From NCBI GenBank assembly GCA_017540175.1, contig JAFYBN010000056.1:1-55824 (forward strand): a stretch of 55,824 nucleotides of DNA, read 5' to 3'. The notes beneath the pieces are model-generated. The model saw nothing but the letters and a program-made list of their open reading frames with translations, did not search any database and was not told where the DNA came from. Position numbers and translations under genes: made by a program. Shown here one piece after another: positions 3,736-4,291 of this stretch; within the stretch, counting starts at the first letter, position 1, and each line of letters opens with the position of its first letter. The DNA is from Clostridia bacterium. Its GTDB lineage: Bacteria > Bacillota > Clostridia > Oscillospirales > CAG-272.

Positions 3736-3915
3736 GAAATAAATCCACTGCGTGGATTTGTGAAATGCGCTTCGCGCGTGAAATACGCCTTCGGCGTGTG
3801 AAATGCCTGCGGGCGTGAGCAGTGGATTTATTTCATTTCACATTCGGTGCAAGCCGAATATTTCACAACGGCGGAGCCGTTATTTCACATTCTGCCGTCA
3901 GGCAGAATATTTCAC
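3736..3915. repeat. Hairpin array with GTGAAAT / ATTTCAC punctuation
   Basis: A 180-bp block made almost wholly of palindromes. The left half has GTGAAAT at 3760, 3778 and 3798, separated by hairpins GCGCTTCGCGC, ACGCCTTCGGCGT and GCCTGCGGGC. The right half has the complementary ATTTCAC at 3835, 3860, 3882 and 3909, separated by hairpins at 3842-3859, 3867-3881 and 3889-3908. A 16-bp inverted repeat (3736-3751 with 3819-3834, AAATCCACTGC arms) brackets the left half, and its left arm can also form a local hairpin. It lies between the tRNA-Cys terminator and the four-helix-bundle gene. Its role is unknown; a transposable or RNA-structured element is inferred. Confidence 0.9.
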
Positions 3916-3936
3916 TGATAAAGAAAGGATTGCTCT

Positions 3937-4291
3937 ATGCCTGAATCCAAGCTCCGCGATATATCGGTTGATTTTTCCGTAAAGGTCATAAAACTATGCG
4001 AGGGAATAAATGGTCATTATTCCCTTACAAATCAGCTTGAACGAAGCGGGACAAGCATAGGAGCAAATATTCGTGAAGCAAAATATGCCCACGGCAAAGC
4101 TGATTTCGTTGCGAAATTGCAGATCAGTTTGAAAGAGTGTTATGAGAGGAAACCGGCTCGAAGCGTTTGTTAAGTCCGACATGATTGGCAGAGAATCGGC
4201 GAAAGAAATTTACAATCAGTGCGGCACGATCCGCCGTATGCTGATCGCCTCGATCAACACGACAAAAGATAATCTGAACAAAAGCGAATAG
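3937..4291 (+). pseudogene. Four-helix-bundle protein (23S rRNA IVS / bAvd-like), frameshifted
   Basis: The first frame encodes an N-terminal part typical of the small four-helix-bundle family found in 23S rRNA intervening sequences and related to the Avd accessory protein of diversity-generating retroelements: FSVKVIKLCEGI, then LTNQLERSGTSIGANIREAK and LQISLKECYE. That frame stops at 4173. From about 4148 the +1 frame continues the family sequence (NRLEAFVKSD, then AKEIYNQCGTIRRMLIAS) to a TAG at 4289-4291. A loss of two bases (or gain of one) near 4147 explains the break; programmed frameshifting is an alternative. The base composition (AT-richer, simpler codons) differs from the flanking GC-rich genes, which suggests acquisition. 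The hairpin array ends 21 bp upstream. Confidence 0.8.

Follow-up and report, generated by a model that had tools for sequence, protein, structure and literature searches.

A self-complementary hairpin array and a four-helix-bundle gene behind tRNA genes: a candidate mobile cassette of gut Clostridia

A two-sided hairpin array between tRNA-Cys and a broken four-helix gene

The window analyzed here, that is, the whole stretch of 55,824 nucleotides from a Clostridia bacterium, carries a tRNA-Cys (GCA) gene on the forward strand (3628..3701; ARAGORN, and 65.6 bits with the Rfam tRNA model), with no CCA encoded in this copy. It is followed on the same strand by a terminator hairpin from the inverted-repeat listing (3701..3734), with perfect 15-bp arms, a 4-nt loop and a T run. 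Neither feature is mentioned in the original prediction for this locus; the hairpin separates the tRNA from a dense array of short palindromes. The hairpin is either the first element of the unit described below or, possibly, the native tRNA-Cys terminator in this copy.

The array had been described as two halves punctuated by one heptamer and its complement, and direct reading agrees: GTGAAAT is found three times, at 3760, 3778 and 3798, and ATTTCAC four times, at 3835, 3860, 3882 and 3909, with the copy at 3835 overlapping an ATTTCAT at 3830. The left spacers with their intervening hairpins span 3760..3804 and the right spacers with three hairpins 3835..3915, both on the forward strand. The seven distinct palindromes said to lie between the heptamers are likewise present (3741-3759, 3767-3777, 3785-3797, 3805-3814, 3842-3859, 3867-3881 and 3889-3908), as is the outer inverted repeat, exact over 16 bp by reading and 19 nt long at 95% in the inverted-repeat listing. 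The 5' arm of this outer stem lies at 3736..3751 and the 3' arm at 3819..3834 (forward strand), and the inner part of the 5' arm doubles as the first hairpin (3741-3759). The arrangement GTGAAAT-11 bases-GTGAAAT occurs once in the window against 0.00 expected from 100 window shuffles, and the fold of positions 3733-3922 reaches -80.6 kcal/mol (z = -6.4, matched by none of 200 shuffles), so that the pattern is not a product of chance.

In addition to what had been noticed before, the array matches the Rfam family Gut-1 (RF01706; gathering score 50) on both strands. The left half (3732..3809) matches the whole model on the forward strand with 77.2 bits and the right half (3830..3917) on the reverse strand, where its reverse complement scores 52.4 bits; the array therefore consists of two inverted Gut-1-like halves.

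Downstream lies a gene on the forward strand, assigned in the original prediction to the 23S rRNA intervening-sequence protein family and thought to have lost its frame. Both statements stand. The N-terminal piece (3937..4173) matches S23/23S_rRNA_IVP (PF05635) over 3937-4170 with 54 bits, above the cut-off of 33.8, and the C-terminal piece (4148..4291), which by itself has no Pfam match, continues from about 4148 in another frame. PF05635 has one match in the window's own genome and Gut-1 has ten, seven of them above the gathering score. Four of these ten belong to a double array on contig C46, which by reading follows an apparent tRNA-Tyr and contains an apparent remnant of the 3' end of the gene.

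Short one-sided Gut-1-like arrays without a four-helix gene were also seen in genome G000 (C22:13003, C82:10924, C26:60555 and C28:17866, the last of them below the gathering score). These four (L004, L005, L006 and L009) have a common TTTGTACCT-type end, and by reading some of them stand directly before the start of a protein gene.

Arrays accompany related genes in other genomes

A contig scan for relatives of the protein gave 199 stretches, the best 80 of which were used; they come mainly from gut metagenome assemblies labelled Clostridia or Oscillospiraceae. Together with the window these make 81 loci, 65 of them with at least 330 bp upstream of the gene. At least four spacer heptamers precede the gene in 63 of the 65; of 796 windows taken from other parts of these loci, 4 have as many. 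Of the two exceptions, L049 has no array and L069 reads as a GTGAAGC-type array. The commonest heptamer is ATGAAAT/ATTTCAT at 60 loci, GTGAAAT/ATTTCAC at nine and a mixture at two (Fisher p 7e-10, a value that is not literal, the sequences being related).

To follow the array independently of its sequence, we used a two-sided spacer test in which the left side has to contain some 6-mer three or more times and the right side its reverse complement three or more times, within 300 bp. By this test, 54 of 133 upstream regions are positive versus 2 of 891 control windows; with at least two copies per side, 107 of 133 are positive versus 44 of 891. For the gene-selected set including the window, the counts are 34 of 72 at three or more per side and 69 of 72 at two or more. 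Eight duplicate loci were left out, as were loci with less than 200, 330 or 450 bp upstream, as each count required. Across 40 further copies from eight related genomes and 22 others, the right spacer stays the reverse complement of the left while the spacer sequence varies freely, and at least nine spacer types, counted after overlapping frames had been merged by eye, recur at three or more copies per side (TGAAAT, GTGATG, TGATAT, GTGAAG, ATGATG, TCGATA, AATGAA, TATATT and CAATTC). The conserved property is the complementarity of left and right, not the sequence of the spacer.

The search of related genomes called for by the original prediction thus found similar arrays, with up to nine gene copies per genome. 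Among 291 genomes of the class, 33 have Gut-1 matches above the gathering score, six of these with at least 15 matches each. PF05635 is matched in 16 of 17 Gut-1-bearing genomes (14 above the cut-off) and in 51 of 98 differently drawn relatives (50 above the cut-off). This genome-level co-occurrence, a modest contrast, fits action in trans.

Several variants were met on the way. By reading, four-helix genes at six loci (L125, L134, L136, L140, L142 and L147) stand behind long series of micro-repeats such as GAAGAGA / TCTCTTC, partly laid out as inverted repeats and without clear hairpins, a type also seen on a Treponema plasmid (L243). One-sided arrays occur at L126, L129 and L143, and genome G289 has long one-sided hairpin arrays (L244, L245 and L248) in which the spacer alternates between GTGATAT and GCTAAAT within one array. 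Sixteen of the 81 gene-selected loci have less than 330 bp upstream (for example, L014, L050 and L081), and many contigs begin in or beside the array; short-read assemblies seem to break at arrays, and copy numbers may therefore be underestimates.

The array is primarily linked to tRNA 3' ends

Among 101 loci with at least 450 bp upstream, 68 have the end of a same-strand tRNA within 450 bp of the start codon, compared with 29 of 3774 random points. The distance from tRNA to start codon is mostly 246-283 bp and 13 isotypes are represented. The link is rarer for other PF05635 copies in relatives (4 of 22). Where a tRNA lies 150-300 bp before the gene, a hairpin of at least 10 bp (one mismatch allowed) begins no more than 6 nt from the tRNA end in 61 of 63 loci, versus 14 of 31 for other tRNAs in those loci. 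In relatives, the order of the parts is a tRNA 3' end, a terminator hairpin, a left half of spacers and hairpins, a right half whose hairpins alternate with the complementary spacers, the S23/Avd-like gene and, in some, a cargo gene that overlaps it at ATGA. The left end of the unit directly follows the tRNA 3' end, which in relatives is usually an encoded CCA.

A stretch of 53 bp comprising the terminator and the start of the array recurs, with five or fewer substitutions, at ten loci behind tRNA-Leu (five), tRNA-Gly, tRNA-Tyr, tRNA-Arg, tRNA-His and one apparent tRNA fragment. Two tRNA-Cys loci (L046 and L071) have a common terminator that is close to the window's, and some terminators may be native rather than travelling with the unit.

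The original prediction asked whether the array always lies 5' of four-helix genes. Seen from the gene this is nearly so (63 of 65), but seen from the array it is not. We hand-picked 40 regions among the Gut-1 matches listed from 15 genomes, some of which end at contig ends. A tRNA end lies within 120 bp upstream in 22 of these 40, and a four-helix gene within 400 bp downstream in only five; two of the five gene matches span just 26 and 31 residues (L282 and L268), and at L272 and L274 the gene is found elsewhere in the region. By reading, several complete two-sided arrays without the gene stand behind tRNAs, and one is wedged between tRNA-Trp and tRNA-Ala (L277). With 22 of 40 after a tRNA versus 5 of 40 before a gene, it is the tRNA to which the array is chiefly tied, and copies that lack the gene are frequent. 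The array is thus first of all an element of tRNA 3' ends, with the gene as an optional passenger or helper. Since 35 of the 40 Gut-1-selected arrays have no gene within 400 bp, a role of the gene in movement is weakly supported.

A second type of hairpin element was seen by reading behind tRNAs, upstream of the array at L139 and also at L003, L032, L135 and L136; it has an antisense T-arm start (GATTCGAA...), a sense copy of the tRNA 3' end at its end, and then a terminator. At two native sites (L218 after tRNA-Ala and L083 after the 3' motif), a single long palindrome is made up of the tRNA 3' end, the terminator and a copy of that end in antisense.

Stems, loops and alternative pairing

For one spacer family (ATGAAAT), we aligned 42 of 44 extracted arrays, which are a subset of that family, leaving out L019 and L039. 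In the outer stem, 98.7% of cells are paired, with 33 double-change cells; in the hairpins, 87.5% are paired and 128 cells, spread over 21 of 32 pairs, show a double change, and the second hairpin stands out with just 56.6%. The covariation scores of the outer stem and of the hairpins were each reached by none of 500 shuffles. Within the outer stem, the four pairs with a double change were reached by 5 of 500 shuffles, and the eight further pair types show no excess, being equalled by 492 of 500. Compensatory change of the stems, proposed as a check on the original prediction, is supported by this alignment.

The proposal that several mutually exclusive folds exist also gains support. Changes in the 5' arm are matched both in its partner within the hairpin and in the distant arm of the outer stem (for example, from G-C-C to A-T-T in 9 of 42 sequences), so that both exclusive pairings are kept.

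Of the pairs in the hairpins 1.9% are G-U, and of those in the outer stem 2.4%; the acceptor stems of the tRNAs at these loci have 4.9% (p 0.001 for the comparison with the hairpins). The triloops are strand-polar: on the left, 50 of 63 are TNC and none GNA, and on the right, 42 of 86 are GNA and none TNC. The likeness between the halves therefore appears only across opposite strands, as it would in DNA. In DNA, GNA triloops with a C-G closing pair have unusual stability. The rare G-U pairs and the strand-polar loops together lean towards hairpins at the DNA level.

The four-helix protein

An AlphaFold2 model built from 42 relatives (pLDDT 94.5) is a four-helix bundle. In the comparison of this predicted model with solved structures, the closest is 2rld, an S23-family protein of Bacteroides, followed by 2gsc; Avd (4dwl) and Avd in the complex of a diversity-generating retroelement (DGR; 8ub7) reach TM-scores up to 0.83 with weak Foldseek E values of 0.04 and higher. 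This kinship of the predicted fold suggests a protein that may bind nucleic acid and form oligomers. Outside these genomes, the gene was found in two phage records from human faeces and in 26 plasmid records. In both phage records (L240 and L241; MT835590.1 and MT835815.1), an array precedes the gene by reading; it follows tRNA-Arg in one record and an apparent protein gene in the other.

Downstream genes, promoters and 3' motifs

By reading, the gene often ends in ...AAAGGAGAA...AAATGA, where a ribosome-binding-like run precedes a stop codon that overlaps the next start. A downstream open reading frame of at least 50 amino acids is present at 38 of 74, 19 of 32 and 12 of 21 loci in three sets, with an exact ATGA overlap in 27, 6 and 2 (incomplete genes, 1, 7 and 1 in the three sets, are left out of these counts). 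We scanned 20 of the downstream proteins, 16 of them with the ATGA overlap. Eleven score above a Pfam cut-off, one (L068) below, and eight have no Pfam match. The matched families are GNAT (L028, L051 and L063), methyltransferase (L024), NUDIX (L089), P-loop or kinase types (L043 and L076), metallophosphatase (L061), pyrophosphatase (L088), DMP19 (L045) and a WapI-like immunity family (L021). By reading, similar cargo types recur after different units.

After the cargo, a conserved 3' motif (motif A) ending in CA, where the 3' motifs generally end in CA or CCA, gave 15 hits at 15 loci with five or fewer substitutions, all on the strand of the gene. It is followed by another hairpin within a few bases in most cases and by a new array in some, as judged by reading; under a strict test, a second array follows the unit at 3 of 65 loci. 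The 3' motifs of 16 scanned loci match no Rfam family at gathering score, and the fold of one motif-B sequence is no better than that of shuffles (z -0.5). Within 75 bp upstream of the gene, 18 of 79 loci show a strict sigma-70-like pattern (61 are without it) versus 2 of 636 control windows, and at loci with a readable promoter the -35 box abuts the last spacer, as judged by eye.

Unit boundaries and site comparisons

An all-against-all comparison of 121 loci gave 228 pairs with at least 82% identity over 250 bp. Among the 70 of these pairs that were listed, the shared DNA runs in many from about -280 (the start of the terminator) to about +348 (the stop codon) relative to the gene, and in a few it extends into a common cargo gene. 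When flanking proteins of 120 loci were compared at an E value of 1e-12, upstream proteins were common to three pairs and downstream proteins to 22. One genome (G037) has two copies with a common terminator and array, one after tRNA-Tyr and the other not.

Three congeneric genomes allow a site-by-site comparison. They have a common gene, which we take to be greA-like and which in the other two is 96% and 80% identical to that of G017, followed by the same tRNA-Ala, identical through CCA. Behind this CCA, G017 continues with the unit, G008 with a different hairpin and then an antisense sequence nearly identical to the tRNA end, and G001 with a simple terminator; the left junction is therefore fixed just after CCA. 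The right end in G017 is past the contig end and the DNA downstream differs among the three, so the comparison displays the left junction only. At a single locus (L083), the 3' motif is followed by a terminator flanked by an antisense copy of the locus's own tRNA end, and the flanks of the right junction read as one palindrome, as though insertion of the unit between CCA and terminator had opened up a tRNA-terminator palindrome. An antisense tRNA end closing a palindrome past the native terminator is found at 2 of 71 loci, clear at L083 and chance-like at L084 (swapped-end control, 5 of 1420). In the sense direction, the tRNA 3' end recurs 330-2600 bp downstream at 2 of 71 loci, and the control with swapped ends gives 8 of 1420.

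Other sites were compared in the same manner. Orthologues of the AEC transporter that flanks the unit in the window (64-70% identical, six congeners) have no tRNA within up to 1.5 kb, some of these regions being ended by contig ends. The gene upstream of L139 was found at 24 other loci, with tRNAs nearby in four and the Thr-Tyr pair in none, and the G256 counterpart of the L277 tRNA cluster stops before tRNA-Trp.

The suggestion in the original prediction that the locus could be a mobile element finds support in these comparisons, namely in closely similar units at different tRNAs and in unrelated neighbourhoods, and in a tRNA-Ala site where the left junction leads into the unit in one congener and into other terminators in two. 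We infer that the units move, with or without their own gene.

Relationship to known systems

Gut-1 was proposed in 2010 as a likely noncoding RNA and is listed there from the human gut only (PMC2864571), whereas matches above the gathering score were obtained here also at loci from ruminant-gut assemblies. The likeness of the window lies in its two matching halves; the Rfam model covers the three hairpins of one half, and the mirrored half, terminator, tRNA, gene and cargo lie outside it.

Proteins of the S23/IVP family are known from 23S rRNA intervening sequences, which are small elements with inverted repeats that are tied to a stable RNA gene and to the same protein family, as in our case (PMC4990558). 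The unit differs in that it lies behind tRNA genes with a hairpin in between, its array is upstream of the open reading frame instead of enclosing it, and some copies have cargo. The window copy lies between tRNA-Cys and a protein-coding frame, and an Rfam scan of 3500-4500 detected no rRNA. Avd proteins of DGRs are similar in predicted fold (4dwl and 8ub7), yet the closest solved relative is 2rld of the S23 family.

REPIN/RAYT systems are familiar examples of hairpin elements scattered through genomes, some with a partner gene and some lacking one. The present units are likewise dispersed hairpins with or without a gene, but differ by their complementary spacer arrays and their targeting of tRNAs. 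Like integron cassettes, they carry varied cargo (GNAT, NUDIX, methyltransferase, kinase-like and phosphoesterase) and by reading some stand in tandem; unlike these, they have a terminator-like hairpin of their own and a four-helix gene.

Several candidate movers were searched for. Reverse transcriptase (RVT_1) has no match in seven array-bearing genomes (G017, G034, G035, G038, G058, G062 and G074) and one match in G000, on a different contig (C80). Y1 transposase (Y1_Tnp) has no match in G000, G038, G062 and G074, and other array-bearing genomes do have one. Neither enzyme is supported as the mover, as the multi-copy genomes G038, G062 and G074 match neither. None of 18 genomes has an integron integrase above the TIGR02249 cut-off, and this enzyme was rejected as the mover; weak tyrosine-recombinase matches to this model occur in all 18 genomes, as they do in 14 of 14 controls, so that a tyrosine recombinase acting in trans is possible.

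Taken as a whole, the unit would work like a mobile cassette but lacks the tested defining features of 23S rRNA intervening sequences, DGRs, RAYT/REPIN and integron cassettes. Its parts are already on file, Gut-1 in Rfam and the S23/IVP proteins as a family; among the papers listed by searches of the open full-text literature of PubMed Central, where RF01706 is mentioned in one paper, no description of the combined unit was recognized, and the combination may be new.

Discussion

We consider it probable that the feature in the window is what decay has left of a small mobile cassette whose insertion sites lie immediately after tRNA genes. With its broken gene and no cargo, the window copy is at best non-autonomous. 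Comparison of the related loci indicates that such cassettes apparently form a family specific to tRNA 3' ends and present in numerous gut bacteria; a gene for a small helical protein often accompanies them, and cargo does so in some cases.

Other explanations have to be weighed against this one. The array might be a functional noncoding RNA, made by read-through from the promoter of the tRNA or from one of its own, with the four-helix protein as a ribonucleoprotein partner and mobility incidental. Gut-1 was put forward as such an RNA (PMC2864571), and the strong fold, the covariation and the resemblance of the predicted protein to Avd, including Avd in the DGR ribonucleoprotein, are all in keeping with it. 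We nevertheless judge it unlikely in view of the hairpin of at least 10 bp that stands between tRNA and array at 61 of 63 loci, of a share of G-U among standard pairs well below that in tRNA acceptor stems, and of the polar loops, which make the halves alike only across opposite strands. Given its place directly upstream of the gene, and a -35 box that touches the last spacer where promoters can be read, the array could also be taken for a cis-regulatory leader, an attenuator or operator of the four-helix gene. However, at the 18 of 79 loci with a promoter pattern after the array, the array would lie outside the leader, and two-sided arrays exist without the gene (present at 5 of 40), which renders this interpretation very improbable.

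We give equally little credence to the idea that the units are decayed ends of tRNA-targeted integrative elements with a tyrosine integrase. The duplicated tRNA 3' end expected at the far end of such elements is rare (2 of 71 loci versus 8 of 1420 in the control), the left boundary stays the same in neighbourhoods that are unrelated, and two-sided units lacking the gene are met repeatedly, even though an apparent tRNA 3' fragment is seen by eye before four loci (L018, L022, L026 and L070) and L139 has, by reading, a duplicated tRNA-Tyr 3' end. Finally, palindrome-rich tRNA spacers could lengthen and become homogenized when replication slips or switches templates, without a mobile unit being involved. 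Strand switching could indeed yield arrays of spacers and antispacers, and the rarity of G-U pairs would suit it, but the common terminator, array and gene behind different tRNAs and the recurring types of downstream genes would be left unexplained, and we find this scenario scarcely credible.

If the units are mobile cassettes as we propose, their organization allows the outline of a mechanism to be drawn. The terminator-first layout would keep the upstream tRNA properly terminated and so make insertion harmless. The array would serve as a site in folded form, probably in single-stranded DNA or as a cruciform, with left and right spacers zipped together. As a guess, the four-helix protein might bind this fold in trans and aid mobilization; equally as a guess, a host or resident enzyme might exchange strands at the CA-terminator junctions, which would place the new unit between the 3' end of an RNA gene and its terminator. 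More tentatively still, the units may constitute a distinct class of mobile cassettes at tRNA 3' ends, with their own terminator, a self-complementary array in place of classical ends, an S23/Avd-like protein acting in trans and capture of host genes through the ATGA junction, a class that would bring integron-like shuffling to gut Clostridia without an integron integrase or a reverse transcriptase; we regard this as possible rather than probable.

These observations give Gut-1, an orphan RNA motif since 2010, a context and a testable function, and they add tRNA 3' ends as a further setting for the S23/IVP family, known so far from rRNA insertions and, by fold, from DGRs. As pairing is kept over at least nine spacer sequences, the fold can be tested in vitro. 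If the units do move, gut Clostridia would hold a large number of small cassettes, and through these, genes for acetyltransferases, NUDIX hydrolases and methyltransferases as well as immunity-like genes would be exchanged at protected sites.
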